Below, piece after piece: positions 21,826 to 62,578 of a stretch of 64,000 bases of DNA (positions are counted from its first letter, which is position 1; every line of letters starts with the position of its first letter). The position numbers were made by a program, and so were the translations under genes. This DNA comes from an uncultured Phycisphaerales bacterium (GTDB lineage: Bacteria > Planctomycetota > Phycisphaerae > Sedimentisphaerales > Anaerobacaceae). The stretch is from positions 7,217 through 71,216 of the forward strand of contig CALEZT010000082.1 of the NCBI GenBank assembly GCA_937927975.1, written 5' to 3'. The notes beneath the pieces are model-generated. The model had not been told where the DNA came from and searched no databases. It saw nothing but the letters and a program-made list of their open reading frames with translations.

Positions 21826-21966
21826 CTGTCCGAGCACCCCCGCCTGTGAATGGCGCCCCCCTGGGGGATCGGTTCGCCGATTCGCCCGATCCCGGTTTGG
21901 AATTGCCGTCGGGGCAGTTGGCGGTTACACTGGGGATTTGGCAACCGACGGATTTTTGAGGTTCAG

Positions 21967-22413
21967 ATGAAGATTGCTTTGGGCACGGATCACGCAGGAT
22001 ACGAATACAAGGAACGCATCAAGAAGCACCTGATCGGGAAGGGGCACGAGGTGATGGATTTCGGGGCCCATTCGAGCGAGTCGTGCGACTACCCCGATTT
22101 CATCTATCCCGCGGCCCTGGCGGTCGCGAAAGGCCAGTGCGACCGGGCGATCGTCATGGGCGGCAGCGGCAACGGCGAGACGATCGTCGCCAACAAAGTC
22201 CGCGGCGTCCGCTGCGCCGTGGTCTGGACCGAGGAGCTGGCGCGCCTGAGCCGGGCCCACAACGACGCCAACGTCATCTCCATCGGCGCCCGCACGGTGT
22301 CGGTCGAGCTGGCCCTCAAGATGGTCGACGTCTGGCTGACGACCCCCTTCGACGGCGGCCGCCACACCGAGCGAGTCCGCAAGATCGCGGAACTCGACCG
22401 CTGCTCGCTGTAA
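21967..22413 (+). CDS. rpiB: Ribose-5-phosphate isomerase B
   Basis: Interconverts ribose 5-phosphate and ribulose 5-phosphate in the pentose-phosphate pathway. The 148-residue protein has the RpiB/LacAB fold motifs: MKIALGTDHAGYEYK, DYPDFIYPAALAV, VMGGSGNGETIVANKV and SHNDANVISIGAR-like SRAHNDANVISIGAR. It has GGSGNGE (E71) in place of the cysteine loop of the E. coli enzyme, like the mycobacterial type, in which this glutamate is the base. ATG 21967 starts the conserved first strand; the frame is open upstream but unlike the family. A hairpin repeat begins 6 bases after the stop. Confidence 0.9.
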   Translation: MKIALGTDHAGYEYKERIKKHLIGKGHEVMDFGAHSSESCDYPDFIYPAALAVAKGQCDRAIVMGGSGNGETIVANKVRGVRCAVVWTEELARLSRAHNDANVISIGARTVSVELALKMVDVWLTTPFDGGRHTERVRKIAELDRCSL

Positions 22414-27052: not shown

Positions 27053-27719
27053 ACAACCGCTGTCCCTGTCGCAAGACTTCAAGGCTGCAAGCTCCGGCTC
27101 GCAGCCTTTTTTGTTGTTCCCGTTCGTGGGCGGCGAGGATCTGTCGTCCTGAGGCGCAGCCGAAGAGCCTGCCCTGAGCAACGCGAAGGGATGACAAGAC
27201 CCGCGCACGAATCATTCCGAATCCGGATGAGCGGTATCTTTGATGCGTATCCGTTGACGCGCCACGCGTGTGGACCACGATCCAGTTGCCGCCGTAGAGG
27301 CGGTTGAAGGCCAGGCGCATCGAGTCGGCGCAGGCGGCGACGTAGTCGGGATCGCCCTGACGCGAGAGAGGTCGGACGTAGACGGGCTTTCGCACACCCG
27401 CCAGGTGGGGTTTGTCCCTGGGCGGCTCGAGGCATTCGAGAAAGACGTTCGTCTCCGGCACGTCGCGGGTCCTGCGGTCGTGCCCCGCCGACGGTTCCGC
27501 CAGGGCGCGGGCCTTGGCCAGGAAGCGGCCCAGCACCGGGCGGTGCGCGTTGACCGTCAGCTCGGCAAAGCACGCCTGCGCCGCGCGTCGGGCGAGGACA
27601 TAGTCGAGCGTCGCCAGCTCGGCCATCCAGACCCGCAGCTCGGCGTCGGTGGGCTGCCACTGGGGCCAGAGGCCCTTGAGGTCCTCGTTGAAGAACCTCG
27701 TTCGTTCGGTCGCGTTCAC
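26955..27719 (-). CDS. Phage replication-associated protein (partner of the DnaD-like gene), extended or decayed C-terminus
   Basis: GTG start overlapping the previous stop (GTGA at 27716-27719). Residues 1-145 are a clear homologue of the partial gene at 63824-64000: RVWMAELATLDYVLARRAAQACFAELTVNAH against RVWMAELATLDYALARRAAQ..., split here into short matches. After about residue 160 the frame runs into a repeat (27142-27200), a terminator and the opposite-strand gene at 26480, so the natural stop is probably lost and the tail is random. The two genes likely acted in phage DNA replication or helicase loading. Confidence 0.6.
   Translation of the reverse strand: MNATERTRFFNEDLKGLWPQWQPTDAELRVWMAELATLDYVLARRAAQACFAELTVNAHRPVLGRFLAKARALAEPSAGHDRRTRDVPETNVFLECLEPPRDKPHLAGVRKPVYVRPLSRQGDPDYVAACADSMRLAFNRLYGGNWIVVHTRGASTDTHQRYRSSGFGMIRARVLSSLRVAQGRLFGCASGRQILAAHEREQQKRLRAGACSLEVLRQGQRLSRANGVCGASPPGPNPDRPEPQPQEPGRRRRC
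27083..27112 (+). terminator. Rho-independent terminator
   Basis: GGCTGC and GCAGCC arms with a 12-base loop, then six T. The same stem and loop occur after the sorting-tail gene at 28667. Confidence 0.85.
27142..27200. repeat. Degenerate copy of the GIY-YIG-type repeat
   Basis: GTCGTCCTGAGGCGCAGCC and AACGCGAAGGGATGACAAG resemble the two arms of the GCTTCGCTCAGGATGAC repeat, diverged and rearranged. Confidence 0.4.
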
Positions 27720-28444
27720 AGGCCCTCCTCGCGCTCCAGGCGCGCCAGCTGGTCGGCGATGCTCTCGGATCGGGCGCCTGCCGCGGCGCGGGCCATCTCC
27801 AGCTCCAGGCGGTCGAAGTGCTTCCGCAACGCGGCGGGACTGAGGATGTTCACCGACCAGAACGGGTCCCGCTGCGACCACCGGATCACCGCCTCGACCC
27901 GCTCGGGACTGCGCCCGTCGAGTTCCAGCATCGCGGCCATCGGCTCCCGCCACGGCTCCCTCGGCGGCTCGCAGAAATCGCTCTTCCTCCGTCGGATCTC
28001 CTGCGAAAGCAACTCACAGAGGAGCTCTCCTTTCTCCTTCTTTTCATTCTTATCTTTCTTCTCATTCTTGTTAGTTGTTGGCTGTGTGTTGGTCGTTTGT
28101 TGCTCGTTTGTTGTCTGTTGGTTGTTTGTTTGTTGGGCAGGGGTGTCGTTGATGTCGTAAATCCTGTGGTCCAGGAGCTGTGCGATCGTGCCGCGGCTTG
28201 TTGGCTTGAACGCGGCCAGGCCCCAACCGGCGAGATGTTTCTGCGCAGTGCGGTATTGTTGGTGCGTCAGGCCGTACCGTCGGTAGTCGCCGAGGAGGGC
28301 TTGGCCGGTCTTGAGGTTGTGAATGTTGAACTCGTCGGTGCGTCGGGCCCGCATCGCAATGACCGTCAGCAGGGCGAAGGCGTTCGGGTCGTTGAGCAGC
28401 TCCAGCGTCTCGTTGGAGCGGTTGAGCTTGATGAAACCGGTCAT
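27716..28444 (-). CDS. Phage replication initiation protein (DnaD-like/HTH)
   Basis: A 242-residue protein. The N-terminus (MTGFIKLNRS..., AFALLTVIAMRARRT, HQQYRTAQKHLAGWGLAAF, GTIAQLLDHRIY) is the winged-helix module usual in phage replisome organisers. A low-complexity linker (about 103-140; TNNQQTTNEQQTTN, NEKKDKNEKKEK) precedes a C-terminal part (AVIRWSQRDPFWSVNILSP, LRKHFDRLELEM) shared with the shorter protein at 63540. AAGGAGATATCC before ATG 28444 is a strong ribosome site. It is coupled to the next gene by GTGA. No other replication gene is adjacent, so the pair is an isolated phage module. Confidence 0.75.
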   Translation of the reverse strand: MTGFIKLNRSNETLELLNDPNAFALLTVIAMRARRTDEFNIHNLKTGQALLGDYRRYGLTHQQYRTAQKHLAGWGLAAFKPTSRGTIAQLLDHRIYDINDTPAQQTNNQQTTNEQQTTNTQPTTNKNEKKDKNEKKEKGELLCELLSQEIRRRKSDFCEPPREPWREPMAAMLELDGRSPERVEAVIRWSQRDPFWSVNILSPAALRKHFDRLELEMARAAAGARSESIADQLARLEREEGL

Positions 28445-29534: not shown

Positions 29535-30059
29535 TCACTTGCTCAGCCCGCCACCTTGGATAGAATCGGCCTGCCCCATGGATGTGTACTTGCGGCGGAA
29601 CTTTTCCGTGAACCGCCAGTCGAGTTGGCATGCGAGTCCGATGTCTGCGAGGATTTCCTCCAGAGACACTCCTTGCTCGCTTCTGCCCAAGACTCCGAGG
29701 GCTCTGAACACACTTCCGTCGGCGGCGCAGATCCTCCAGTCGTCCGGCTCACCGCACAGAAATGCGAGGGCTTCCTTTTCCCCATCGTGCAGAAGAGCTT
29801 TGTAGGAGAGGTCAAATTTGTCATGGAAGGCTTTGACGCACGACAATGGGACATCCTCTATCCGAATACGATGATCGCGTTCATAGGCGTCGAGATCGAT
29901 GCGGATGTCTTCTGACTCGCCGCTCGCCCAACGGGCCTCTTCCGCGACGGTTCGACAAATCGTCAGATCGCACTTGGCGATGAACGCTTCCCAAAGACCT
30001 AACCTGAAGAGTTCGAGGATCGGTCCGGCGTCAAGCAACAGAAACCGATATTTCTTCAT
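29535..30059 (-). CDS. PIN-domain protein (toxin-like ribonuclease)
   Basis: A 174-residue protein with a PIN layout: D10 in LLLDAGPILEL, an acidic pair in TVAEEARWA, E in DGEKEALAFL and D in ICAADGSVFRAL, i.e. the four acids of a metal-dependent RNase. It overlaps the end of the XRE-ImmA gene by 29 bases, so the two are one transcript. PIN proteins are often toxins; here the partner would be the HTH-protease fusion rather than a small antitoxin. Whether it is active is unknown. Confidence 0.7.
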   Translation of the reverse strand: MKKYRFLLLDAGPILELFRLGLWEAFIAKCDLTICRTVAEEARWASGESEDIRIDLDAYERDHRIRIEDVPLSCVKAFHDKFDLSYKALLHDGEKEALAFLCGEPDDWRICAADGSVFRALGVLGRSEQGVSLEEILADIGLACQLDWRFTEKFRRKYTSMGQADSIQGGGLSK

Positions 30060-31137
30060 CCGCCAGATTCTCCCGATCCGTCAGATACTGTTGCGCTTCC
30101 CTGTAGGAGAGGCCCGTGTATTTTGCGAACTGAATCAGAGACACCTTTCCGTCGCGAAGAGCCCGAACCGCCAGGCTCCAATACCGCTCAGGCAGTGGAT
30201 CAGGCTGATCCGAGCGTCGCGGCGGACGCATCAACTTCAGTCTTTCGCCTTCCTCGATCAACAGTTGGATTTCCTCGACGCTCTTGTTGTAGAGATACAG
30301 GAGCCTCCACAGGAGCGCGTTGAGTGAAACGCCGAATTCTCGCGCGATCTCGTCCAATTGCTCCAAGCCGATCTGACCCTTGTCGTTCTTGAGATCGTCT
30401 ATTCTGTTTCTGACAGCGTCCGTTGGAAGAAGCAACCGGCTGGCGAATGCATCCGCAAGTTTCTCTTCCTGCTCCGTGGCGGCGCACGTGACAGGAGCAG
30501 AAACACGAAATACGCTCCATGTGAGAAGGTGAAACAGCTCATGCGCCAGATCGAAATTCCGACGCCACAACTTGCTGCTGGAATTCAATAAAACTGCAGG
30601 ACCGAATTCAGGGGACAACGTCGAGATCGCGCTGCCTGAAAACGACAGGTGGAATACTTTGATGGAGAACCGTTCCTCCAGCACTTGTCTGAGCGAGGCG
30701 CTGGGTATCTCGCCCGGCAGAAACTGCTTCTGGAAGTTCTCTGCCAGACGAGCGCTGTCCTTGAAAGTGAACCTCTCCGATGAACCCTCAGCTTGCGGCA
30801 AACCCGGACCTTTCGGTTCGTCAAGCAGCAATTCCAACCGGTGATACTGCTCACAAAGCCGCCGGAATTCCGCTTCAGTGCTCTTGATCTGTTCGTCCTG
30901 CGATGGGGGGTCGCGCCAAAGCATCAACTCGTCGACCACGAGACGGTCGTTCAGAAAGAAGTCCACCGACCTCCGATAGAATTCCGCCAATCGACTCAAC
31001 TGAGAGAACCGAGGTTCTCTCTTGCCGTTCTCAAACTCACACAACGAGGATTGACCGATTCCGGTTCCCTCTGCTACTTTTTCGAGAGTATAGCCAATAG
31101 CGTTACGTGCAAGCCGCAGTCTTTCACTGAGTTGCAT
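30031..31137 (-). CDS. XRE-family HTH regulator with ImmA/IrrE metallopeptidase domain
   Basis: A 368-residue fusion. The N-terminal Cro/CI-type HTH (about 5-60; GYTLEKVAEGTGIGQSSLCEFENGKREP) is followed by an ImmA/IrrE zinc peptidase with HELFH (in FDLAHELFHLL) and EEKLADAFASRLLLP. A C-terminal helical part contains another HTH-like segment (GKVSLIQFAKYTGLSYREAQQYL). Such proteins derepress genes by cleaving a repressor, in phage and stress systems. The PIN-domain gene overlaps its 3' end. The AT-rich gap to the terminase at 31260 is likely a promoter region. Confidence 0.85.
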   Translation of the reverse strand: MQLSERLRLARNAIGYTLEKVAEGTGIGQSSLCEFENGKREPRFSQLSRLAEFYRRSVDFFLNDRLVVDELMLWRDPPSQDEQIKSTEAEFRRLCEQYHRLELLLDEPKGPGLPQAEGSSERFTFKDSARLAENFQKQFLPGEIPSASLRQVLEERFSIKVFHLSFSGSAISTLSPEFGPAVLLNSSSKLWRRNFDLAHELFHLLTWSVFRVSAPVTCAATEQEEKLADAFASRLLLPTDAVRNRIDDLKNDKGQIGLEQLDEIAREFGVSLNALLWRLLYLYNKSVEEIQLLIEEGERLKLMRPPRRSDQPDPLPERYWSLAVRALRDGKVSLIQFAKYTGLSYREAQQYLTDRENLADEEISVSVA

Positions 31138-31259: not shown

Positions 31260-32789
31260 TTAGTACGCCCGGCTGACGGATTGCACGGGTCGCTTGCGGT
31301 GGATGAAGAAGTAGCGCAGCGCGTCGATCGGGTGGTCGTGGACGCCGTCCTTGAAGGGCAGCTCGCCGGATACGGCGCGGGCGTCGTCGGGGTAATGGTA
31401 GCATTCCATTGCCTCGATCAGGCGCACGCAGCGGGGCGAGATCGCCAGCGAGGTCGAGCCGTCGCCCGCCCGCACGGATCGACGGATCAGCTCGATGCCT
31501 TCGAGGATCGCGCTGCGTCGGTACTTGACCGCGATGCCCAGGCTTCGCAGTTCGCGGACGCTGCTGGTGCCGGTGACGTCGTTGGAGCCGGAGCCCGCGG
31601 GATCGCAGTAGGTGGCCGCCACCTGCTCCTCGGGGCAGGGCGTGCGGGCCTTCATTTCTTTGGCATGCACGTCGATCGTCGCGCGGCTGCGGACGTACTC
31701 GTCGATCACGCGGACCTTGCCTTCGCCATCGACCTGGACCCACAGGCACACGAACGGGTTCACGAACCCGAAGTCCAGCGTCCGATAGAGCGGCAGGTTC
31801 GGATCGTAGTCGACGGGTCGCACGTGCACGCTCGCGTCGAACTCGCTGAAGACAACGTTCTCCGACGAGGGACGGATGCACAGCATCTCGGACTCCCACG
31901 CGGCCCGGCTGCTGCGTCGCATCTGCGCGATGCAGTCGTCGATTCGCAGGTAGCCTGCGGCGTGTTGGGCCCGCCCGCCGCAATCGGACCAGAGGGGGCA
32001 GCGCGAGCAGTCGCGGCCGACGCACTTTTGGATCGTCTCCCACAGGCACCACTTGAAGACCGGGACGCCCAGCTCCTTGGCCGCTGCGACCTCGCGCTGC
32101 ATGATCCCATAGGGCTTGTGCATCGTGCTGATCAGCTCCATCGACCCGACGCAGACGTCGGTGCTGAGCGTGGTGAACTTGGCGGCCGCGAAGACGTCCT
32201 CGTCGAAGAGCTCGACCTCGTCGCAGCGGAGTTTCTGGACGTGTGTGCCGCGGACGCTGGTGGCCGACTGCGTGAGGACCTCGACGGATGAGCCGTTGGC
32301 GAATCGGCAGCCTCCTTTGCGGACGGGTCCGGCCAGCGACTCCTCGAACCCGCGGCGCAGGAAGCGCACGAGGTAGTCGTACAGGCGCGAGGACTGCTCG
32401 CCCGAGCCGCCCAGGATGCGGACGTGACAGTTGGGCTTGAAGAAGGCGTCGAGCAGCGTCGCGATCGCGGCCAGCTCGGTCTTGCCGCCCGCGCGGTTGG
32501 CCCAAACGATGGAGTCGGAGCATGGAGGATGGATGACCGACGATTGATGATGGATTATGGATGATGGATTATCAATGGAAAAGCTGTTCCACAGGTAGTC
32601 CATCGGGCTGCTGTGGTCGGGGCAGAGCCGCACGTCGGGAACGTCGAGGTCGAGGAAGGTCTTGACGTAGGTCTTGAGCTCCTCGCGGGTGCGGGGCCGG
32701 GCGTGACGCAGGGTCTCGCGATGACGGGCCCCGGCGAGGGACTCTTGATTCATCATGGATTCTTCAGAAAGCAGATTCGTCTCAGTCAT
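31260..32789 (-). CDS. Phage terminase large subunit
   Basis: A 509-residue DNA-packaging ATPase and nuclease. Walker-A-like WANRAGGKT (96-104), Walker B KLRCDE (D190, E191), and the nuclease acids in RTLDFGFVNP (D339), YCDPAGSG and DHPIDALRYFF. Four cysteines (256-270) may bind zinc. Start ATG 32789 has a GGAGG site; a TTG at 32804 has none. Residues 71-92, just before Walker A, are a low-complexity insert (SIIHHQSSVIH) encoded by short TGATGGAT repeats, which is absent from the usual fold. No portal or capsid gene is adjacent; these lie 18 kb away on the other strand. Confidence 0.9.
   Translation of the reverse strand: MTETNLLSEESMMNQESLAGARHRETLRHARPRTREELKTYVKTFLDLDVPDVRLCPDHSSPMDYLWNSFSIDNPSSIIHHQSSVIHPPCSDSIVWANRAGGKTELAAIATLLDAFFKPNCHVRILGGSGEQSSRLYDYLVRFLRRGFEESLAGPVRKGGCRFANGSSVEVLTQSATSVRGTHVQKLRCDEVELFDEDVFAAAKFTTLSTDVCVGSMELISTMHKPYGIMQREVAAAKELGVPVFKWCLWETIQKCVGRDCSRCPLWSDCGGRAQHAAGYLRIDDCIAQMRRSSRAAWESEMLCIRPSSENVVFSEFDASVHVRPVDYDPNLPLYRTLDFGFVNPFVCLWVQVDGEGKVRVIDEYVRSRATIDVHAKEMKARTPCPEEQVAATYCDPAGSGSNDVTGTSSVRELRSLGIAVKYRRSAILEGIELIRRSVRAGDGSTSLAISPRCVRLIEAMECYHYPDDARAVSGELPFKDGVHDHPIDALRYFFIHRKRPVQSVSRAY
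32524..32580. repeat. Short GATGGATTAT/TGATGGAT repeats inside the terminase gene
   Basis: Imperfect tandem units such as GATGATGGATTATGGATG are in frame and add about 20 residues to the terminase ahead of Walker A. A similar CCATCATCCATCA tract precedes the scaffold-like gene at 52755. Confidence 0.55.
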
Positions 32790-36302: not shown

Positions 36303-36968
36303 ATGAAAAGCGAATCGCGAAGGCGTATCTATTGCTACGGAAAGGAACCTCAGGTCCGCCACATGGTGGAAACGGCGCTGGGACGCGCGGACAAGCTGCT
36401 CGGCTACTTCTCCCAGTGCCGGGATTGCCTGGAGAAACTGTCCGCCAAACCCTGTGACATTCTCATCGTGGATCTGGAGGGGGCCGAGGGAGAAGGGTTG
36501 GAGTTGCTGTCGCAGGTCCGTCGAATGGCGCCGTGGGTATCCACTGTGGCGATCGTCGAGCGGGCCGCGGTGCCAATGGCCGTAAAGGCTGTCAAGGCCG
36601 GGGCTTGTGAGTGCCTTGAGAAACCCGTCGTGGCCGACCGCTTGTGCGAAGCGATCGAAACCCAACTGGTGCGGATTGCCTCATCGTCCCGTACTCAGCG
36701 GGCCCTGACCCAGATGGAGATTCAGATCATGAAGTTGATCCTGGCCGGCAAGACCAGCCAGGACATCGCAGTCCACCTGCACCGCTCCAAGCGAACCGTC
36801 GACGTCCACCGCAAGCACATCATGCGAAAGCTCCAGGCGTGCAGCCTGGTGGACCTCATCAGACGGGCCCTGAGCATGGGCCTGATCGACGACGGAGAGC
36901 CCAACGGACATTCCGAATTCAACGGCACCACCCACTCCGCCGACGATTCGACCCCGTTGTGTTCCTGA
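36303..36968 (+). CDS. Response regulator-like protein with LuxR-type HTH
   Basis: A 221-residue FixJ/NarL-type protein. A receiver-like domain (about 8-120) keeps the phospho-acceptor D57 (DILIVDLEG) and a lysine (K107 in EKPV), but the usual N-terminal acidic pair is replaced by CYGKEP, so phosphorylation is uncertain. The HTH (about 140-195) has LTQMEIQIMKLILAG and RTVDVHRKHIMRKL. No histidine kinase is adjacent. The tail (196-221) is polar and disordered. Targets are unknown. Confidence 0.85.
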   Translation: MKSESRRRIYCYGKEPQVRHMVETALGRADKLLGYFSQCRDCLEKLSAKPCDILIVDLEGAEGEGLELLSQVRRMAPWVSTVAIVERAAVPMAVKAVKAGACECLEKPVVADRLCEAIETQLVRIASSSRTQRALTQMEIQIMKLILAGKTSQDIAVHLHRSKRTVDVHRKHIMRKLQACSLVDLIRRALSMGLIDDGEPNGHSEFNGTTHSADDSTPLCS

Positions 36969-37133: not shown

Positions 37134-37781
37134 CTATGACCGTCGGCCAGTCGTCTCGTCGCGTGCCTGCGTGAGGAACTGCCCTGCGATCTGCGTCAAA
37201 GCCGCAGCCCTTCCGGCGGCGCGACTGCGTTCTTGGGCAGACGGGTCCGCAGCGAGGAGGGCCTCTTCGATCTGTTGCTGCTGTCCGTCGTCCACGAAGA
37301 ACACCATCGCTTTGGCGAACGCGGAGGCCTTCTGTGCCGTCGCGCGGCCGAGCGGCTGGGAACTTGTGAGCCGTTCGATCTGGCCGAGCGTGGCAGGCAG
37401 CAGCCGGGCCAGCTTGCGGATGGGAATCCGACGGACCAGGCGTCGCAGCAGCGCGAGCTTCTTGTCGAGGCAGTCCCGACCACCGAGACGGTTCAGAGTG
37501 CCCAGCAGGATGTCCGCCTGCTCGTCATCGACGTCCCAGACGACCGCCTCCGCGGCGGGGAGCCCGAGCTTGCGAATCGCTTCGCAGCGGTGCCGACCGT
37601 TGAGTATCTGGTAGAAACCGTCCCGGCGGGGGCAGGGGCGGACCACGAGCGGCTCGTACCGCCCGGTCCGCTCGATGTTGTGCAGCAGCTTGTCGGCGTT
37701 CGCCCGGCTCATGCGGTTGGGGCTGTCCGGATGGGGCACGAGCCGGTCCAGAGGGATGTGCTCGATCGTTGTCCTTCTCAT
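37134..37781 (-). CDS. ParB-like nuclease/CTPase-domain protein
   Basis: A 215-residue protein. The N-terminal ParB/sulfiredoxin-type domain (about 5-100) has IPLDRLVPHPDSPNRMS and the NGRHRCEA box (61-68); CTP or nucleotide binding is typical of the family. The remainder (100-215) contains a possible HTH (RKLARLLPATLGQIERL). Its ATG overlaps the GNAT stop by ATGA, so it ends the HTH-ABC-GNAT-ParB operon. Such ParB proteins occur in phages and mobile elements; a partner ParA is absent here. Confidence 0.75.
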   Translation of the reverse strand: MRRTTIEHIPLDRLVPHPDSPNRMSRANADKLLHNIERTGRYEPLVVRPCPRRDGFYQILNGRHRCEAIRKLGLPAAEAVVWDVDDEQADILLGTLNRLGGRDCLDKKLALLRRLVRRIPIRKLARLLPATLGQIERLTSSQPLGRATAQKASAFAKAMVFFVDDGQQQQIEEALLAADPSAQERSRAAGRAAALTQIAGQFLTQARDETTGRRS

Positions 37782-38518
37782 GGTTTGGCCTCCGTCATCG
37801 ATGGGTTGAACCAGATATAGTACGAGGGGCGGTGGGTCAGCTTGCCCAGCAGATAGCGAGTCCGCTCGATGCCGCGGGGCATGGTTCGGCGTGTGCCGTG
37901 GCTCCTGAGAAAATCCGCGATGTGGTGCTCGATGAACGCCTTGCGCGAGCCGGTCAGGCGATCGAGACGCTCTTGCACGGTCGCCGGCGAGACGAGATCC
38001 CGTTCCTCCACACCCGTTGCGCTGAACGCCTCGATCAGCTTGACGTGCTCGACCGCGACCCGCGGCTCGCAGACCTTCATGCCGGCCCGTTCGAGGAATG
38101 GATTCGCCAGGGGCATGATGCCCAGCGCCTCGACGATCGGCACGTTCATCGCGGGCATCGTCTCGCGCACCAGTCGCGTCGCCAGGCCGATGCCGCGCAG
38201 TCGCGGCTCGACGATCACCCTCGCGATGCAGCGGACGCTTCGGTTGAGCATCGCCAGTTCCGTCTGGCGGTCCAGGCCCGCGAAGAGGCCGCCGGTGGCG
38301 AGGGTTCGCAGTTCCACGCGCGGGTTGGGCATCGTGTAGACGATCACGCCCGCGGTCTTTCGCCCGAACGAGCCCAGCGGTTCGACGGGACGCAGCGCAT
38401 ACACCGCCTTGACCGCGACCGGGCGCTCCTGGCGGTAGTGATGCACGGCCAGTTGCGTGTAGTCGCTCATGTCCCCAGAGACAAGTTTCAGCGATCGCAT
38501 GATGGAACATGTGTGCAT
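37778..38518 (-). CDS. GNAT-type acetyltransferase, partner of ABC ATPase
   Basis: A 246-residue protein of the GNAT superfamily. The acetyl-CoA motif is RLRGIGLA (105-113 region; RxxGxG/A). AAGGAGAACCC before ATG 38518 is a strong site, and the gene overlaps the ABC gene by 31 bases. In archaeal and bacterial genomes a related ABC-type ATPase is fused to such an acetyltransferase domain (COG2401); here they are separate adjacent genes. The acceptor is unknown. The C-terminal third, with MPRGIERTRYLLGKLTHRP, is not GNAT-like. Confidence 0.75.
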   Translation of the reverse strand: MHTCSIMRSLKLVSGDMSDYTQLAVHHYRQERPVAVKAVYALRPVEPLGSFGRKTAGVIVYTMPNPRVELRTLATGGLFAGLDRQTELAMLNRSVRCIARVIVEPRLRGIGLATRLVRETMPAMNVPIVEALGIMPLANPFLERAGMKVCEPRVAVEHVKLIEAFSATGVEERDLVSPATVQERLDRLTGSRKAFIEHHIADFLRSHGTRRTMPRGIERTRYLLGKLTHRPSYYIWFNPSMTEAKP

Positions 38519-39159
38519 GGGTTCTCCTTGTAGATGACCTGGGCGGGTCCCGTGAAGTCCTTGCGGATCAGCACGTCGGGCGCCAGGTCGATCAGGAAGT
38601 CGTCCCGACCGGAGGCCAGGATCAGCGTGAGCCTGGCCCGCCTGGCGAAGCGATGCACGTTGAACGCGACCGTCGCGGCGGTGATGCGGTCCAGCTCGCT
38701 GCAGAACTCGTCGGCAAAGAGGAAGGGCCGCCCTGAGGCCAGAGCCTTCGCCAGGCGAAAGCGGTGCTTCTGTCCCTCGCTCAGATGCGACGGACGGTTC
38801 AGGATGGAGAACACGTCCGCCAGACCGACCGCGCTGAGCGTCTGGAGGCTGGCGACGAGGTCGTCACAGAAGCAATCGATCACCGTGCGGTCGTCGGGCA
38901 ACTCGATCTCGTCCAGATCGACCGCGTCCCGGGCAGGCACGCAGCTCTGAAGCTCGCGGAGCAAGACGCTCTTGCCCGCGCCGGAAGGACCGGTGATGTA
39001 GACGATGTCCCCCGGTGCGATTCGGACTCTGCACGCGTGCTCGGGGGCTCCCGCGGTGAGTCGATCGACGGTGAGCCCGAACATGCGACAGATCCGCACC
39101 GCCCGTTCGCTCAAGGGGCCCTGCCAGGTGAATCGTTTCGAAACCGTGTACGTTGTCAT
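38488..39159 (-). CDS. Soluble ABC-type ATPase (COG2401-like)
   Basis: A 223-residue ATPase with Walker A GPSGAGKS (57-64), signature LSEGQ (126-130), Walker B FLFADE (D150, E151) and D-loop CSELD. No membrane span and no permease gene nearby, so it is not a transporter. The H-loop position reads ASGRDD, without the usual histidine. Strong AGGAGG site before ATG 39159. The adjacent GNAT gene and ParB gene form one operon. A role in a phage or mobile-element nucleoprotein process is plausible but unproven. Confidence 0.8.
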   Translation of the reverse strand: MTTYTVSKRFTWQGPLSERAVRICRMFGLTVDRLTAGAPEHACRVRIAPGDIVYITGPSGAGKSVLLRELQSCVPARDAVDLDEIELPDDRTVIDCFCDDLVASLQTLSAVGLADVFSILNRPSHLSEGQKHRFRLAKALASGRPFLFADEFCSELDRITAATVAFNVHRFARRARLTLILASGRDDFLIDLAPDVLIRKDFTGPAQVIYKENPCTHVPSCDR

Positions 39160-39209
39160 GCGAAATTCCTCCTGCTCGTATCAGTTCTGCGACCGATCGG
39201 AGACGCAGG

Positions 39210-39629
39210 TCAGGACTGCGCCGGTTGCGAGAGGTCTCTCGCTTTGTCGACGATCGCGCGGACGCGGTAATAGCGCAGGCCGGAGTCCCGCGCGATCCTC
39301 GCGAGAGACAGGCCTCGGATCAGGTGGTCCCGAAGAACATCCATCTCCTGATCGCTGAACCTGTCCCGGCTCGCCAGGCACGCCAGGTACGTGCGGTCGG
39401 AGAGCCTGCGGAGGATCTTTCCAATCCGCCGGGAAATGGAGGATCGGTTCATCCCGGTCAATCGGCCGAGCTGCTGGAAGCTGCACCCGGCCTGGATGTA
39501 CAGGGTCAACAGGGTTCGGTCTACGCCGATGAGCCAATCCGCTTGTCGCCGGAGGAGGTCCACGCCGTCCCGTTGCACGGGGGCGCAATGCAGATCCCGT
39601 TCCGCCGGCTGCTTGCTGAGGCGTCGCAT
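39210..39629 (-). CDS. Small HTH protein, possibly sigma-like or terminase-small-subunit-like
   Basis: A 139-residue protein with two helix-turn-helix stretches: SFQQLGRLTGMNRSSISRRIG (split here: residues about 64-84) and SLARIARDSGLRYYRVRAI (about 110-128). The first resembles sigma region 4. ATG 39629 has an AGGAG site 8 bases upstream; the longer frame to 39674 has none. It is the first gene of the operon with the ABC ATPase 50 bases downstream. It may be a transcription factor for the module; a terminase small-subunit role is an alternative. Confidence 0.6.
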   Translation of the reverse strand: MRRLSKQPAERDLHCAPVQRDGVDLLRRQADWLIGVDRTLLTLYIQAGCSFQQLGRLTGMNRSSISRRIGKILRRLSDRTYLACLASRDRFSDQEMDVLRDHLIRGLSLARIARDSGLRYYRVRAIVDKARDLSQPAQS

Positions 39630-39745
39630 ACTCCCATCTCCTAACAATACAGTGGTTGCGCCAGTCTTCAACAAGGATGCCGAATCTCGTGAGGGTCTCG
39701 CTCAGACCCCCTGGCTCTGTTCTGTGCAGAACCAACTGGAGTACA

Positions 39746-39773
39746 AGTTTAACAGACAACCGGACTCTGTCAA
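39746..39773 (-). promoter_or_regulatory. Sigma-70-type promoter of HTH-ABC-GNAT-ParB operon
   Basis: On the minus strand TTGACA, a 16-base spacer and TAAACT, about 120 bases before the HTH start. The 361-base gap also holds an AACCCC/GGGGTT stem at about 39823-39842. Confidence 0.6.
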
Positions 39774-47339: not shown

Positions 47340-47717
47340 ATGGACCACGCCGCACCACCGCAGAGCTCCCTGGATGAGCTGTTCGAGGCGTTGAAGCGAT
47401 CAGGGTTCCGCAGCCGGTTCCGGCTTCGGGGCAAAGAGGCGGCGTACCTGCGGGAAAAGGGTCTGGAGACCGTCCTGGAGCACGCGAGGGATTTCGTCGT
47501 GAAGAGGCTCGCGCCCGCGAGGATCGCCAACGACGGCAAGCAGACCCCCATGCGAAACCACCCGGTCTTCGTCGCCCAGCACGCGACCGCCACCTGCTGT
47601 CGCGGCTGCCTGGAGAAATGGCACAACATTCCTAAAGGTCACGCGTTATCCGACCGAGAAGTCCTGTACGTGGTGGCTGTTATCCGACGGTGGCTTAGTT
47701 CACAGCAGCCGCAATAG
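47340..47717 (+). CDS. DUF4186 family protein
   Basis: A 125-residue protein of the DUF4186 group: QHATATCCRGCLEKWHNIPKG is the conserved core (about 81-101; shown here with its C89-C90-x2-C92 cysteine and H80-type histidine set), with YVVAVIRRWL at the end. The cysteine-rich core may bind a metal. No function is known. It starts 24 bases after the truncated nitroreductase gene on the same strand and may be a chance neighbour. Confidence 0.8.
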   Translation: MDHAAPPQSSLDELFEALKRSGFRSRFRLRGKEAAYLREKGLETVLEHARDFVVKRLAPARIANDGKQTPMRNHPVFVAQHATATCCRGCLEKWHNIPKGHALSDREVLYVVAVIRRWLSSQQPQ

Positions 47718-47826: not shown

Positions 47827-48804
47827 ATGACGGAACGGAATCCGAAAATCGTAGTCATCGGAAGCACGTACATCGACCTTGCGGTCAAGTGCAGCAATAT
47901 CCCCACCCCCAGCCAGGCCGTCAGCGGTTCTTCCCTGGCGTGCACCCTCGCGGGTCCCGGCCCGATCCAGGCGGTGCAGGCGGCTTTGTGCCGATGCGAG
48001 GTCTCTCTGATCAGCAAGGTCGGAGGCGACGCCTTCGCACAGATGGCCCTCAAGAGCCTGGCGGAATACAAGGTGGACACCGAGTACGTGTTCTTCGCGG
48101 AGTCCAAGACCACCGGCGTCATCGTCACGCTGGTCAACTGCGAAGGCGAAAACGCCACCTGCCACTACACCGGCGCCAACTGCGCCCTGCAGCCTGCGGA
48201 CATCCAACTGGCTGAGGAACGCATCGCCCAGGCGGACGTCTGCCTCATCCACGGCTGTCTGCCTCAGGATGCGATCGCGGCGGCCATCCACTGCGCCAAC
48301 CTCCACGGGACCCGCGTGATCCTCAACCCCGCCCGACCGATCGAGCAGACGGACCAACACCGCGTGGACCTGCCTTCGGAGTACTTCACGGCCGACGTCC
48401 TGGTGGCCAACCTGGAGAAGGCCGCGGAGATTGCCGAACAGGCGGCAGCCCATGTCCGCACCGCCAAGATGATCGGCTCGGACCTCATCGCACGCGGCGC
48501 CCACAGCGCGGTCATCACGATGGGTCGTCGCGGCTGCGTGGTCGTGGACCGCAACGGCGCCGACCACGTCCAAGGCTTCGAGGTCGATTGGGTGGACCGA
48601 ACCGGCAGCGGAGACGCCTTCGCCGGGGCGCTGGCCGCCTATTGCGGGGTCAAGCACGATCTTCGCGCCGCGGTCAAATTCGCCTCCGCGGCGGGCGCCC
48701 TGGCCTGCACGAAATTCGGCGCGATCGAGTCCCTGCCCTCCAAAGCCGAGATCATCCAACTCCTCCAGAACGAAGACATCGACCTGCTCCATCACAGCCA
48801 GTGA
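47827..48804 (+). CDS. PfkB/ribokinase-family sugar kinase
   Basis: A 325-residue kinase of the ribokinase superfamily. The catalytic-base motif DRTGSGDAFAG (258-267; D263) and the NPARP loop are normal. The N-terminal substrate motif, usually GGKGxNxA, reads AGPGPIQA (42-49), so sugar binding may differ. The substrate cannot be told. The start ATG follows AGGTAGCAAC, a weak site. A hairpin repeat follows the stop. Confidence 0.85.
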   Translation: MTERNPKIVVIGSTYIDLAVKCSNIPTPSQAVSGSSLACTLAGPGPIQAVQAALCRCEVSLISKVGGDAFAQMALKSLAEYKVDTEYVFFAESKTTGVIVTLVNCEGENATCHYTGANCALQPADIQLAEERIAQADVCLIHGCLPQDAIAAAIHCANLHGTRVILNPARPIEQTDQHRVDLPSEYFTADVLVANLEKAAEIAEQAAAHVRTAKMIGSDLIARGAHSAVITMGRRGCVVVDRNGADHVQGFEVDWVDRTGSGDAFAGALAAYCGVKHDLRAAVKFASAAGALACTKFGAIESLPSKAEIIQLLQNEDIDLLHHSQ

Positions 48805-51003: not shown

Positions 51004-52671
51004 ATGAAAACGACACAGCGGAAAGGGCGACAGGACATGGCATTCGAGCTTGAAGCTTTCGATGGGCGGACGGGGGACCCCAAACGCGGCACATCGCGTC
51101 CGGGAACTCTCGACGCGGACTACCTCGACTGGCTGGTGGACGTGCACGCCGCGAGTATCCAGCAGCACTTCTCGCGACTGTGGGACTACTACGCCAACCC
51201 GATGTCCGACGCCTGCGGCGCCGCCGCGGCCGATCGCAAAGTCAGCGAGTCGGGACGCTGCTACATCCAGGCGCAGGAGGTCGGTCTGCCCTCGCGGATC
51301 ACCGGCCTGGCCCGCTCGCCCCACGGCGGCGCATTCGGCGCCCAGCCCGTGCGGGACATCCAGCGCAAGGAAGTCGTGATCGAGAACGACATCGCCTGGC
51401 GCGTGAACGCCGCAGCGGACTTTCTGTTCGGTAAACCGGTCACTCTGATCTCCCGGGCCTCCGACGACCGCAAGCGCAAAGACATCGAAGCGATCCTCAA
51501 GGCGCTGTTCGCGGCCAATGGCGGTCCCGGCTTCTTCCAGGACATGGCAGTGCTCGGAAGCGTCTACGGGTTCGTCGATTGCCTCATCCGAGCGCCCCAG
51601 ACGCAAGATGCGTTTGGGAATCCGCGGTCTCGGCAACCCCTCCCCGAGACCTCTTCCCTCGCTTGCCCTCCACCTCCCTCCCAGGGTCCCCGGCCCAGCG
51701 ACACAACCGGGGACCCACTCTCCCCTGTGCTGCAATGGGCACAAGCGATCGATCTGGAACTGATCGAGGCGCCCCGAGCGCTGCCTGTCCTGGACGAAGA
51801 CGACTATCGAACCATCCGACTGTACGTGCAGCACTTCCACCAGAAGACCAACACGATCAGCGGCAAGGGCTCGTTCCTCGCGCGCATCCTCGGCGCCGCA
51901 GGCTGTCGAAGCGACACCCGACAGGTCGTCGCGGTGACGGAGATCACGTCGCCCGACTACTGGCAGCGGTACGAGGACAAGGAACTCGTCGCGGAAGGCC
52001 CGCTGCCCTGGGGTTTCCTGCCGATCGTGCACATCCAGAACGTCGCGCAGCCCTACTACTACGAGGGCGTCAGCGACGTCGAGCCGCTGATCCCGCTGCA
52101 GGACGAGCTCAACACGCGTCTGAGCGATCGGGCCAGCCGAATCACGTTCCAGTCGTTCAAGATGTACCTGGGCAAAGGCATCGAGGGCTTCGAGAACAAG
52201 CCCGTCGCGCCGGGCCGGATGTGGTGCACCGACAATCCCGACGCCTCCATCCAGGAGTTCGGCGGCGACCTCGCGGCCCCCAGCGAGCACGCGCACATTG
52301 CGGAGATCCGTGAAGCGATGGACAAAGCCAGCGGCGTGACGCCTGTCGTCGCAGGCATCCTCCAGGACCGACTGGGCAATCTCACCAGCGCCGTGGCGCT
52401 GCGTCTGACGTTCATGGGCATGCTCAGCCGGAACGAACGAAAGCGCCACACCTACGGCGAGGGAATCCGCAAGATCTGCCGGATGGTCCTGAGCATGCTC
52501 GACACCGCGGGCGTCTACTCCACCAGCGAATCGGATCGGGACGTCGAGATCGCGTTTGCCAGCCCTCTGCCGGAGAACCTCATGGAGAAGCTCCAGGAAG
52601 CGCAGATCAAACGCGACCTGGGCGTCCCCCAGGACCAGATCCTCAAGGAGTTGGGCTACGAAACGAAGTGA
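51004..52671 (+). CDS. Phage portal protein (SPP1 gp6-like)
   Basis: A 555-residue portal: a ring through which DNA enters the head and to which terminase docks. N-terminal clip/wing segments (ERVRxD-like YWQRYEDKELVAEG), the portal core (GDVEPLIPLQDELNTRLSDRASRITF in pieces) and the C-terminal AIRAMRL-like SAVALRLTFMGMLSRNERKR helix are recognisable. Residues about 197-245 are a proline-rich insert. An ATG at 51037 is an alternative start. The terminase partner is absent from the cluster (see 31260). First gene after the leader repeat. Confidence 0.85.
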   Translation: MKTTQRKGRQDMAFELEAFDGRTGDPKRGTSRPGTLDADYLDWLVDVHAASIQQHFSRLWDYYANPMSDACGAAAADRKVSESGRCYIQAQEVGLPSRITGLARSPHGGAFGAQPVRDIQRKEVVIENDIAWRVNAAADFLFGKPVTLISRASDDRKRKDIEAILKALFAANGGPGFFQDMAVLGSVYGFVDCLIRAPQTQDAFGNPRSRQPLPETSSLACPPPPSQGPRPSDTTGDPLSPVLQWAQAIDLELIEAPRALPVLDEDDYRTIRLYVQHFHQKTNTISGKGSFLARILGAAGCRSDTRQVVAVTEITSPDYWQRYEDKELVAEGPLPWGFLPIVHIQNVAQPYYYEGVSDVEPLIPLQDELNTRLSDRASRITFQSFKMYLGKGIEGFENKPVAPGRMWCTDNPDASIQEFGGDLAAPSEHAHIAEIREAMDKASGVTPVVAGILQDRLGNLTSAVALRLTFMGMLSRNERKRHTYGEGIRKICRMVLSMLDTAGVYSTSESDRDVEIAFASPLPENLMEKLQEAQIKRDLGVPQDQILKELGYETK

Positions 52672-52754
52672 CGATGGCTGACCGGAGACCCGCGGGGGCC
52701 TCTCTTCCATCATCCATCACCAATCATCCATCATCAATGAAATACGGAGTCAGT

Positions 52755-53171
52755 ATGAGCGACAACGACGGGACCAACACGGAGAACCTGGCCGAGCAAC
52801 TGGCCCAGGCGAACGAGCGGATCGCACAGATGTCCGAGGAACTCAGCGGCCTTGCGATCGAGCAGAAGCTCACGCACAAGCTGGCAGGGGTCGGAGCGAT
52901 CGACCTCGAAGCGGCGCTCCTGCTGGCGCGAGCGAGGATCGAAGGCCGGACCGAAGCGGATATCGACGAGTGCGTGACCCGCCTAAGAAAGGAGAAGGCA
53001 TACCTCTTCGGGGGATCGAACCCAGTGGTGATGCCCCGAAAGACCGCAAGCGCCAAGGACCGCGTCACACGCAACCAGGCGGTGCTCGAACAGGCCGCCA
53101 GGCGAGCCGCCAGGACCGGCAGCCGCGTGGACCTCCAGCGGTATCTGATGCTGCGAAGAAGCATGATGTGA
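52755..53171 (+). CDS. Putative phage scaffold protein
   Basis: A 138-residue protein, largely charged and helical: a coiled-coil-like N-terminus (ENLAEQLAQANERIAQMSEEL) and a basic C-terminus. Between the portal and major capsid genes, this is the usual place of the scaffold. ATG 52755 has a GGAG site; the frame runs open to 52668 through a CCATCATCCATCA repeat tract and is not counted. No sequence family is evident, so the call rests on position and composition. Confidence 0.6.
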   Translation: MSDNDGTNTENLAEQLAQANERIAQMSEELSGLAIEQKLTHKLAGVGAIDLEAALLLARARIEGRTEADIDECVTRLRKEKAYLFGGSNPVVMPRKTASAKDRVTRNQAVLEQAARRAARTGSRVDLQRYLMLRRSMM

Positions 53172-53241
53172 CGGACGTTGGGTCTATCCGACTTCCGGCT
53201 TCACACTTCAAACTTCACACTTTTTTCAAGGAGACACAAGC

Positions 53242-54396
53242 ATGGCATTCACCGGAAAAGCGACGTACAGCGCAGGGATCGCTCTGCCCGAGCTGGCTGA
53301 GGACGTGGCGGACCTCATCGGTCTCATCACGCCCGCCGAGACGCCTCTGCTCGACGCGCTGGGCGACCCGCTGCGCGAGGCGACCAGCACGCACCACGAG
53401 TGGCTGGAGGACGAGCTGCTGCCTAACAAGGACGCGGTCAATGACTCGACGTGGACCAACCCCGCCTCCGACACAACGTTCGACGTGGACCATGGAGGCC
53501 GCTTCCGCACAGGCGATCAGATCCAGGTCGAAGGCAGCGAGGAGCTGATGCTCGTCGCATCGGTCGCCGGCAACACGATCACCGTGCAGCGAGGGTACGC
53601 GAACACGACGCCCGAAAACCTCGCCAACAACCAGGTCATCAACATCCTGGGCAACGCGGCCCTCGAGGGCGACACCCGGCCCAACGCACGATTCACCAAC
53701 CGCGTCCGCTGCGGCAACTACACGCAGATCTTCACCTCTGCGGTCGAGGTCAGCGGCAGCGACATGGCCGCCAGCCAGCTCGGCCTGGCCAACGAAATGG
53801 ACTATGCAAAGCAGGTCCGCCTGCGCGAGATGGTCCGCGATCTGGAGAATACCGTCCTCAACGGCGGCAAACCCGTCGCCGATCCGCAGGGCAGCGGCGC
53901 CGTCCGACGAACGATGAAGGGCATCCTGCAGCACCTGGCCACCAACGTCTTCCGCGCCGGCGACAGCGGTTTTCCCTCCGGCGCCGACCTCGACGAAGCC
54001 AAGGTCAACTACGTCCTGCGGAAGATCTGGGAGAACAGCAGCGGCAACGTGGACCTGATCGTCGTCGGCGGCTTCCAGAAGCGAAAGATCAACGCCTTCT
54101 GCTCCGACAGTCGCAGCTACGGCGCGGACGACACGACGTTCACCGACATGGTGAGCCTGTACGAAAGCGATTTCGGCGTCTGTCGGATCGTGACGACCCG
54201 GCACATCCCGCAGGACGCGGTCCTGTTCCTGGACTCGTCCCGCGTCAGCGTGCTGCCGCTGACCGGTCGGAGCTTCCACTTCAAGCCGCTGGCCAGCTCC
54301 GGCGACTACGAGTGCGGCGAGCTGATCGGCGAGTACACCCTGGAGTTCAAGAACGAGGCCGCCCACGGCCTGATCCGCGACCTGACCGCGAGTTGA
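53242..54396 (+). CDS. Phage major capsid protein (SU10-like/DUF5309)
   Basis: A 384-residue major head protein, HK97-fold by family. GKATYSAGIALPELAEDVAD and LLDALGDPLREATSTHHEWLEDEL at the N-terminus and VDLIVVGGFQKRKINAFCS in the core are typical of DUF5309/SU10-type coat proteins. CAAGGAGACACAAGC precedes the ATG. A terminator and a repeat follow, so expression of the downstream genes may depend on read-through or another promoter. Confidence 0.85.
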   Translation: MAFTGKATYSAGIALPELAEDVADLIGLITPAETPLLDALGDPLREATSTHHEWLEDELLPNKDAVNDSTWTNPASDTTFDVDHGGRFRTGDQIQVEGSEELMLVASVAGNTITVQRGYANTTPENLANNQVINILGNAALEGDTRPNARFTNRVRCGNYTQIFTSAVEVSGSDMAASQLGLANEMDYAKQVRLREMVRDLENTVLNGGKPVADPQGSGAVRRTMKGILQHLATNVFRAGDSGFPSGADLDEAKVNYVLRKIWENSSGNVDLIVVGGFQKRKINAFCSDSRSYGADDTTFTDMVSLYESDFGVCRIVTTRHIPQDAVLFLDSSRVSVLPLTGRSFHFKPLASSGDYECGELIGEYTLEFKNEAAHGLIRDLTAS

Positions 54397-54403
54397 CGAC
54401 GAC

Positions 54404-54440
54404 AACGCCCCGGCGGTCGTCGTCCCCCCGTCGGGGCGTT
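54404..54440 (+). terminator. Rho-independent terminator after the capsid gene
   Basis: AACGCCCCG and CGGGGCGTT form a stem with a 19-base loop, followed by TCTTG. Confidence 0.7.
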
Positions 54441-54443
54441 TCT

Positions 54444-54553
54444 TGTCATGCTGAACGAAGTGAAGCATCTGGCCTGCGGATAGGAAACTGGCATCGCATT
54501 CCCAGCCGCATTCCACTCCCAGGCCAGATCCTTCGCTCTCGCTCAGGATGACG
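54444..54553. repeat. GCTTCGCTCAGGATGAC inverted-repeat pair, gene-free
   Basis: TCATGCTGAACGAAGTGAAG (minus arm, from about 54446) and CCTTCGCTCTCGCTCAGGAT (plus arm, to about 54549). It is the same family as the GIY-YIG cassette, inserted within the structural cluster. Confidence 0.7.
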
Positions 54554-54585
54554 GAATCGAACCATTGGCATGAGGATGAACGAAC

Positions 54586-55242
54586 ATGGCACAGTTCTCG
54601 AATGATGTGGATGTTTTGAAATACGAGCCCGCGCTGTTTGGCGAGTTGCATCTGCCGTCGCAGGTGCAGACCAGCGGAAACGGCGCGGTTCTGAACGGGA
54701 CCACTCTGGCCGCGCCCCAGGCGGACTTCATCAAGTCAAGCGTCGAAGCCGGCGGCGTCGTGCACTTGAGATCCGCGGACGGATCGCTCGACGGCGCCTA
54801 CGAGATCGTCTCGGTCGATTCCGCGACGCAACTGACGGTCTCCGTCGTGAGGGCCGATCCGACGAGCCCGCCGGTCGCTCCTCCCGTCGGAGGCGAAGTC
54901 TCCTATCGAATCAGCACGCTGGGTCCCCAGGCTGTCGATGCGGCTCTCCAACTGACGCAGCTTTTCGGCATCCGCCCCGGCGACCCCTCCAGCTCGATCT
55001 GGCCCAACGACCTCATTGAGATCGAAGGCCTTCGCAGGGCCTCGACGCTCCTGGTGATCGCCAACATCTACACAACGTGGGCGGGACAAGGCCCAGGCAA
55101 GTGCTTCACAGACAAGAGCCGGCACTATCAGCAGCTCTTCGAAAAGGCCCGGCAGCGGTGCCGTGTGAGCGTCGATCTTGGCTCCGATGGCATCGCCGAC
55201 CGCCATCGCGTCGGCGGCGTGGTCCGGCTCGTACGCGATTGA
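54586..55242 (+). CDS. Phage protein, probable head-tail connector
   Basis: A 218-residue protein of the structural cluster. Position right after the capsid and the mainly beta N-terminus suit an adaptor or connector, but I do not recognise the family. The N-terminal half includes DNGDTTL-like beta repeats (VDSATQLTVSVVRADP). Confidence 0.5.
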   Translation: MAQFSNDVDVLKYEPALFGELHLPSQVQTSGNGAVLNGTTLAAPQADFIKSSVEAGGVVHLRSADGSLDGAYEIVSVDSATQLTVSVVRADPTSPPVAPPVGGEVSYRISTLGPQAVDAALQLTQLFGIRPGDPSSSIWPNDLIEIEGLRRASTLLVIANIYTTWAGQGPGKCFTDKSRHYQQLFEKARQRCRVSVDLGSDGIADRHRVGGVVRLVRD

Positions 55243-55270
55243 GGCCCCCTCGCAGAAGAAAGGATCAGTC

Positions 55271-56426: not shown

Positions 56427-56439
56427 CAAGGAGACCATC

Positions 56440-57228: not shown

Positions 57229-57262
57229 GACATCCCCCTCCGATGAAGAAAGGCACAGAATC

Positions 57263-57721
57263 ATGGCATACGAGATTCAGGCGGACTACGCATCAGGCAG
57301 CGTTCTCTACGCGATCATTCGCAATCCCGCCGGGCAGGTGTGGCATCCCGCGGGACGCGCTTTCGAAGAATGGGGCGCGAGCGGCCACGCAATCAGCGAC
57401 TACGCCATCTCGCTGATCGACCGAAGCGGCAACCGATACGTGGGCGACTTCGACTCGAACATCCCCGGTGGCTCGTACTGCATCCAGGTCCTGCGACAAG
57501 TCGGCGCGAGCCCTGCGGATACGGACCTTCTGGTGTGCAGCCGGGACATCCTCTGGACCGGCGCGGGCGAACTGACCGTGATCAAGATGCTGGCCAACCG
57601 CGCCGTCCAGGACACGATCACCCGCGACATCGACTACTACGATGACGACGGTCAAACCGTCCTGCTCACCCTGACTCCGCGCGACGACGACGACACCTGC
57701 TCGCTGACGCCGCAATCGTGA
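57263..57721 (+). CDS. Phage structural protein of unknown role
   Basis: A 152-residue protein: beta-rich with acidic C-terminus (IDYYDDDG, RDDDDTCS). Its position between tail genes is the only evidence of function. A GAAAGG site precedes the ATG. Confidence 0.45.
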   Translation: MAYEIQADYASGSVLYAIIRNPAGQVWHPAGRAFEEWGASGHAISDYAISLIDRSGNRYVGDFDSNIPGGSYCIQVLRQVGASPADTDLLVCSRDILWTGAGELTVIKMLANRAVQDTITRDIDYYDDDGQTVLLTLTPRDDDDTCSLTPQS

Positions 57722-57756
57722 GCGACTATTCCACCCACCTCAACAGGAGCATAGAC

Positions 57757-58152
57757 ATGGGCAGTTTCTCGAACTACTGGGAGAACGAAGTTCTCGACCA
57801 CCTCTTCAGCAAAGGGACGTACGCGCCCCCGACGATCCACGTGGCCCTCTCGACCGCCGACCCGGGCGAAGACGGCTCGGGCCTCGACGAGCCCGAGGGC
57901 GGCGGATACGCCCGCGCTGTGACGCAGGCGAGCGATTGGAGCAGCGCCGACAGCGGCCTCGTCGACAACGCTCAAGCCATCGAGTTCAACGCCGCGACCG
58001 GCGCCTGGGGCACGCTGACGCACTTCGCGCTGTTCGACGCCGCGACCGCAGGCAACCTGCTCGCCCACGGCTCGCTCACGCAGCCCAGGACCGTCAACGC
58101 GTCGGACGTCCCTGTGTTCCCTCCGAGCGATCTGCAAGTGACGTTGGATTGA
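57757..58152 (+). CDS. Phage tail-fibre/gp80-like protein
   Basis: A 131-residue protein with the KGTYAPPTIHVALSTADPG-like opening common in phage tail-fibre (gp80-type) proteins, followed by GGYARAVTQASDW and a LTHFALFDAAT segment. ATG 57757 follows CAGGAGCATAG; an earlier ATG is at 57718. It probably contributes to the tail or baseplate. Confidence 0.6.
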   Translation: MGSFSNYWENEVLDHLFSKGTYAPPTIHVALSTADPGEDGSGLDEPEGGGYARAVTQASDWSSADSGLVDNAQAIEFNAATGAWGTLTHFALFDAATAGNLLAHGSLTQPRTVNASDVPVFPPSDLQVTLD

Positions 58153-58181
58153 CGATGAACGATTCATAAAGGAGCCCGATC

Positions 58182-58667: not shown

Positions 58668-58670
58668 ACC

Positions 58671-60296: not shown

Positions 60297-60314
60297 TGAT
60301 CCGGAGACACGCAT

Positions 60315-62135: not shown

Positions 62136-62175
62136 AGTCGCAAGCAAGAAGCGTCAAGTCGCAAAGGAGCCCATC

Positions 62176-62508: not shown

Positions 62509-62578
62509 GCCAGGGACGCGACGATGTCTTCTATCAACCACCAACAATCAACCTTCGCAAATGCCAAAAGGAGTTCCC

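Follow-up and report, generated by a model that had tools for sequence, protein, structure and literature searches.

A four-gene HTH–ABC–GNAT–ParB operon of planctomycetes as a probable part of a phage-derived DNA-packaging system

The operon and the packaging and head genes of the window

We analysed a stretch of 64,000 nt (the window) of contig CALEZT010000082.1 from an uncultured Phycisphaerales bacterium (assembly GCA_937927975.1). Its minus strand carries an operon encoding a helix-turn-helix (HTH) protein, a solitary ABC ATPase, a GNAT-fold protein and a ParB N-terminal-domain protein. A preliminary description had pointed out four close or overlapping genes behind a TTGACA-N16-TAAACT promoter; the coordinates, the overlaps and the promoter match bear this out. 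The promoter-like site (39746..39773), sigma-70-like with a 16-nt spacer and 10 of 12 consensus positions matched, lies upstream of the HTH gene (39210..39629), whose product is similar to sigma-70 region 4 and is perhaps the regulator of its own operon. The ABC gene follows (38488..39159; Walker A GPSGAGKS, signature LSEGQ, Walker B FLFADE), then the genes for the GNAT-fold protein (37778..38518; phrog_886, 2.1e-9) and the ParB protein (37134..37781; domain match). The last three genes overlap, ABC and GNAT by 31 nt, GNAT and ParB by ATGA. The GNAT gene stays below Pfam cut-offs, and a structure model of its product shows the GNAT fold; in 19 planctomycete and phage sequences residues H27, Y28, R71, N92, R100, R108, E130, A145 and Y233 are invariant.

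The preliminary description did not mention the window's terminase, portal and capsid genes and was incomplete to that extent. The large terminase gene (terL, product TerL; 31260..32789, minus strand; phrog_2, 4.9e-21; Terminase_6C above cut-off) lies 4.3 kb downstream of the operon on the same strand, with a response regulator gene (36303..36968, plus strand) between terL and parB, a position that has its equivalent in genomes G701 and G615. Walker A (WANRxGGKT), Walker B (LRCDE) and the nuclease motifs DFG, DPAG and DHxxDALRY are invariant in 12 aligned TerL sequences; as far as sequence can tell, the ATPase and RNase H-like nuclease motifs of the window TerL are intact. The family also has four invariant cysteines (C255, C260, C263 and C269, alignment positions 255-269), which suggests a metal-binding insert.

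The head cluster occupies 51034-63508 on the plus strand, 11 kb upstream of the operon. Ordinary genes stand in between, among them a 125-aa gene (47340-47714) and a pfkB-type kinase gene (47827-48801), both on the plus strand and kept in order in G701, G615 and G692. The cluster begins with an SPP1-type portal gene (51034..52668; phrog_64, 1.9e-24; one window protein matches SPP1_portal at 1.6e-16), a scaffold-like gene (52740..53168; phrog_194, 4.6e-4; linked relatives in six loci) and an SU10-type major capsid gene (53242..54393; phrog_1328, 2.5e-78; one window protein matches SU10_MCP at 1.9e-87). Five genes with no clear family match (54586-55239, 55268-55660, 55646-56423, 56440-57225 and 57263-57718) have relatives in matching order in G701, G615 and G686. 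A gene of a phage 'head protein' family comes next (57718..58149; phrog_240, 2.4e-27), with a relative on the operon contig of G217 (match to L346, 3e-18). Then come 58182-58664, 58671-60293 (LamG-like by eye), 60315-62132 (606 aa), 62176-62505 and 62897-63508 (lipoprotein-like by eye); from position alone one would guess fibre or baseplate proteins here. One of 58 window proteins matches the podophage fibre family Gp80 of Pfam.

Recurrence and gene order in planctomycetes

The best 120 relatives of the ABC protein listed share 67-96% identity with it; several have phycisphaeral or planctomycete names, and several bear the source name 'ABC-type ATPase with predicted acetyltransferase domain'. 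In the phylum to which G001, a Fimbriiglobus bin, belongs, 37 of 392 genomes carry the gene (E<=1e-20); in one class it turned up in 85 of 397 (E<=1e-30). We picked 60 loci by score and by length of the surrounding contig; with the window they make 61. ABC adjoins GNAT in 59 of these, ParB in 52 and an HTH gene of the window's family in 49, and all four occur together in 42, as expected from the earlier claim that the genes are coupled. The two loci with no GNAT gene (L243 and L287) are both at contig ends. The commonest arrangement is HTH-ABC-GNAT-ParB in a single direction. A second one, ParB-ABC-GNAT with a different HTH gene before ParB, is found in L267, L271, L273, L278, L279 and L281.

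Terminase genes lie near the operon in part of the loci. A small-terminase-like (TerS) gene is present in 30 of the 61 stretches (one, in L237, matches phrog_2538 at 2.4e-7) and the window's TerL family in 27; loci of the second arrangement have another TerL (phrog_9, 7.5e-21) after GNAT, plus a weakly TerS-like gene. In seven genomes (L252, L253, L254, L248, L264, L266 and L258) rpiB stands between TerS and TerL; the window has its rpiB at 21850-22410. Among the 397 genomes of the class, the TerL family occurs in 199, mostly as a single copy, and GNAT in 257; 176 genomes have both, 23 TerL alone, 81 GNAT alone and 117 neither (odds ratio 11, Fisher p 2.6e-24, kinship uncorrected).

The window, G701 and G615 agree in gene order: TerL, response regulator, ParB-GNAT-ABC-HTH, 125-aa gene, pfkB, portal, scaffold, capsid, then the remaining head genes. 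In the stretches examined, the window-type portal is present in six of 60 genomes (G615, G701, G686, G692, G579 and G199), and the capsid additionally in G332. Ratios of non-synonymous to synonymous change (dN/dS, Nei-Gojobori) were computed between the window and its nearest relatives among the stretches examined for six genes; the proportion of synonymous differences (pS) was 0.31-0.51. The values are 0.13 and 0.21 for ABC, 0.16 and 0.17 for GNAT, 0.15 for TerL, 0.20 for the portal, 0.14 for the capsid and 0.29 for the 606-aa gene. On this sequence measure the six genes are under purifying selection (0.13-0.29).

A second lineage of the operon is accompanied by other head genes. The single-contig genome G374 carries, in order, HTH, ParB, ABC-GNAT, a TerS-like gene, TerL, portal, a protease-like gene (weak, 0.014), capsid, neck and a short gene (236 aa) of tape-measure-like type. 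Its capsid aligns with the part of phrog_133 that represents the capsid (6.5e-14); relatives are named as phage capsids and assigned to Pfam PF25209. Among the best 120 relatives the organism name, where given, is planctomycete, and Symmachiella macrocystis and Schlesneria paludicola are on record as having relatives. Profiles of this portal and capsid were run on 80 genomes: 37 ABC-positive, 25 ABC-negative and 18 more of the window's class. The portal (E<1e-200) was found in 13 of the 37, 0 of the 25 and 0 of the 18, and the capsid in 12, 0 and 0, all 12 being among the 13 portal carriers. Weaker matches came from G195, G025, G304, G143, G153, G369, G373, G389 and G703. Since these profiles did not pick up the window-type genes of G579 and G701, the lack of matches in the window's class carries little weight.

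In the 12 genomes with all three genes, ABC, portal and capsid lie within 10 kb of each other only in G374. ABC and portal are together in G362 and G153, with the capsid 23 kb (inverted) and 460 kb away, respectively; portal and capsid are together in G292, where ABC is 68 kb away, and in G217, G258 and G316, where ABC is on another contig. All three are apart in the single-contig genomes G025 (ABC, portal and capsid at 3.51, 3.69 and 0.11 Mb) and G106 (0.29, 0.06 and 0.18 Mb), and they are on three contigs in G267, G138 and G195. The distances of ABC, portal and capsid are correlated (Mantel r 0.80, 0.75 and 0.88; p 2e-4, 7e-4 and 1e-4; 12, 11 and 12 genomes), the expected outcome of common descent.

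PF05065 was found in 10 of 42 operon-positive genomes and PF05136 in 13 of 24; several of these matches are probably ordinary prophages. Two stretches (L319, G288 C1:1230001-1250000; L320, G304 C9:14001-34000) hold a head-tail cluster resembling that of lambda, which brings its own terminase (760-785 aa); the portals are 62% identical between the two genomes, and this is perhaps an ordinary prophage type.

Phage relatives and the nature of the system

Searched by tblastn against 50,697 phage records, the ABC protein has matches in 55, of which 41 have at least 80% coverage; for GNAT, matches come from eight phage records. A block of ParB genes, ABC and a GNAT-like gene stands shortly before TerL and portal in nickie, RHEph10 and an Acinetobacter 105-kb plasmid, and a capsid gene is seen near it in nickie and the Acinetobacter plasmid. 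SSU5 has the ParB-ABC-GNAT block at the end of its record and TerL at the start. The preliminary description had proposed to look for these genes near phage terminase and portal genes, which is where they lie both in phage-plasmids and inside the window. Phage-plasmid TerLs rank first for the window TerL by coverage x identity, while a Gordonia phage has the better E-value, over 46%. In an unrooted FastTree of 107 ABC sequences, the 61 from planctomycetes all lie outside a group (support 0.992) that unites 44 of the 46 from viruses and phage-plasmids; the remaining two, from actinophages, group with the planctomycete ABCs.

We consider it probable that the operon is the control and packaging-accessory part of a DNA-packaging system that derives from phages and that planctomycetes inherit vertically; a gene transfer agent (GTA) is its likeliest form. 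A packaging and head system of phage origin is well supported by sequence comparison, and it is probably inherited vertically: synteny is kept among the window, G701 and G615, and the distances of the separated genes are correlated. Terminase, portal and capsid genes, as a GTA should have, are present in the window and in the second lineage, and we regard the set as likely to be a working GTA. Should the cargo be host DNA, there would be no need for the genes to stay together, and their scatter would be explained.

Several observations weigh against this interpretation. A window-type portal or capsid was seen in 7 of 60 genomes (stretches examined), and the head families differ between lineages (phrog_64/phrog_1328 in the window, phrog_21/phrog_133 in the second lineage), so that the whole set may have more than one origin. 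The window shows neither a recognisable tape-measure protein nor a TerS gene, and the nine nearest loci (L228-L236) fall outside the TerS cluster. An integrase may be present in the window, where the Pfam survey of 58 chosen proteins covered 25 of their 46 families. Near TerL lies a phage replication-type gene for a DnaD-like helicase loader (27719..28444, minus strand; phrog_2514, 2.8e-29; relatives in L231, L234, L235, L236 and L394); it is an uncertain member of the packaging system. The window-type capsid has many relatives in viral contigs (at least 166 confirmed, the best at 81%), and larger portions of the two sets are found on L432 and L510, both labelled viral. L510 (14 kb; from a virus or a chromosome) has the second-lineage genes ABC, GNAT, TerL-like, portal-like and capsid in a row.

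The strongest rival, to which we give a minor share of belief, is a conserved but phage-like or decaying prophage, or a satellite, with its pieces split by rearrangement and no host function. The viral-labelled contigs, the phage-plasmid relatives of the module, the set still contiguous in G374 and, near TerL, the DnaD-like loader and an XRE-HTH and ImmA/IrrE-like regulator speak for it. The regulator gene (30031..31137, minus strand) directly follows TerL, as do its relatives in G665 and G749, and is paired with a gene for a small protein with no family match (29535..30059, minus strand). Virion genes of an ordinary prophage should be contiguous, as in G374; in the window, pfkB, the response regulator and others separate the parts, and this order, ordinary genes included, is kept in G701 and G615. 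The low dN/dS values and the presence of TerL, usually as one copy, in 199 of the 397 genomes also argue against a prophage. So does the small number of confirmed viral contigs: among 2.9 million, at least three carry the window TerL family, at least one the window-type portal and at least one the second-lineage capsid, all lower bounds because each profile scan used two short patterns. Two of the TerL contigs have a PF04860 portal next; thus phages with relatives at 30-37% identity do exist. Single-sequence scans of these contigs with ABC and GNAT gave no match. The earlier suggestion of a phage system stands as to relationship, but in planctomycetes the genes look like a stably inherited scattered set rather than an ordinary phage.

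We think it improbable that capsid or tail parts were domesticated for a use other than transfer (a storage shell or a weapon) while ParB, ABC, GNAT and TerL serve another task. In its favour, the operon and the head genes seem separable: a PF04860 portal is above cut-off in 4 of 42 operon-positive genomes (1 of 14 in a further search), the SSU5-type portal profile found none in the 42, and 24 of the 37 genomes have no strong second-lineage portal, although the profiles miss the window type. Against this, TerL retains its ATPase and nuclease motifs, and the portal comes directly after TerL in G374 and G362. Least probable of all is a modification-restriction defence in which GNAT, ABC and ParB mark self DNA, TerL cuts unmarked DNA and the head genes are mere neighbours: acyl modification of a DNA base has been predicted for the pairing of a GNAT with an ABC ATPase (PMC7824862), and in PADLOC the ABC protein resembles mad3 (1.6e-14) and the ParB protein a type II methyltransferase model (6.7e-6), but the syntenic pattern and the co-occurrence with portal and capsid speak otherwise. 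These resemblances being partial, a known defence system was set aside.

Within the GTA interpretation we can outline what the operon might do, its chemistry being inferred. The HTH protein would switch the operon on or off; ParB would load on DNA as a nucleotide-gated clamp (ParB-fold proteins bind CTP, ATP or GTP, and one acetyltransferase fusion binds GTP; PMC12704722); the ABC ATPase would engage ParB-loaded DNA and position GNAT, which would acylate a DNA base or a protein on that DNA. Acylation might mark or ready host DNA for TerS/TerL, which would cut the marked DNA and pump it via the portal into the capsid. A fuller version, in which an ancient Planctomycetota GTA with scattered genes has its packaging licensed by ParB-ABC-GNAT through acyl-marking of host DNA before terminase acts, and the same trio marks DNA in SSU5-type phage-plasmids, is a tentative proposal that we would rate well short of even. 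An ABC transporter was set aside, since the genes that recur beside ABC on its strand (GNAT, ParB, HTH and terminase genes) are DNA-related, although permeases were not searched for. No ParA partner was noticed among the neighbours of ParB, although no search was aimed at it.

Some further features were seen in the window. A short DnaD-like relative (63540-63827, plus strand) and the one at 27719-28444 (minus strand) mark two ends of the set. Paired XRE/ImmA and small genes directly after TerL are found in three genomes (window 29535-31137, minus strand; L300 7517-9116; L260 1-1495). At 10945-16395 (minus strand) two FGE-sulfatase-type genes follow a sigma-factor-like gene.

Comparison with known systems

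COG2401 has the same two domains as the ABC and GNAT proteins. The preliminary description had the two halves as split here, and they are indeed two overlapping genes in the window, so that an ABC joined to an acetyltransferase domain appears as overlapping neighbours; in L270, L273 and L281 both lie within one frame. In Gordonia phage Axumite both domains, each just below its Pfam cut-off, are in one protein (L005 603-1808, between ParB and terminase at the record start). In the literature collection searched, no paper uses the name COG2401.

The similarity to Mom and TmcA-NAT10 nucleobase acyltransferases is less specific. A Foldseek search with the GNAT model placed TmcA, Mom and NAT10 within the first seven rows; on a closer structural look Mom is tied with dozens of ordinary acetyltransferases, and many protein and small-molecule acetyltransferases score equally. 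Membership of the Mom family was set aside, since the fold alone is common to both.

The SSU5-type block (SSU5, nickie, RHEph10 and the Acinetobacter 105-kb plasmid) is the nearest phage counterpart, with ABC at 35-39% and GNAT-like at 19-23% identity and ParB, shortly before terminase. In these phage-plasmids the virion genes follow directly, whereas in planctomycetes they are reordered and mostly scattered.

A review (PMC11841831) characterises GTAs by packaging and structural genes spread over several loci, with distances of up to hundreds of kb, and by vertical inheritance; it reports no evidence of replication genes in them, and links BaGTA to run-off replication. The planctomycete set fits this description, the DnaD-like gene excepted; by analogy with BaGTA, a tie to run-off replication is conceivable. 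As in RcGTA, CcGTA and BaGTA, there are packaging and head genes, several loci and signs of vertical inheritance. Unlike them, the set belongs to another phylum, consists of other gene families and has an extra ParB-ABC-GNAT-HTH operon. The same source names proven GTAs from few lineages: Rhodobacter and relatives, Bartonella, Brachyspira, Desulfovibrio and Methanococcus. Our literature search, judged on titles and abstract openings, met no planctomycete GTA. If true, a planctomycete GTA would add a phylum to those known, and would tie to DNA packaging the unexplained ParB-ABC-acetyltransferase trio met in phage-plasmids and in the name of COG2401.

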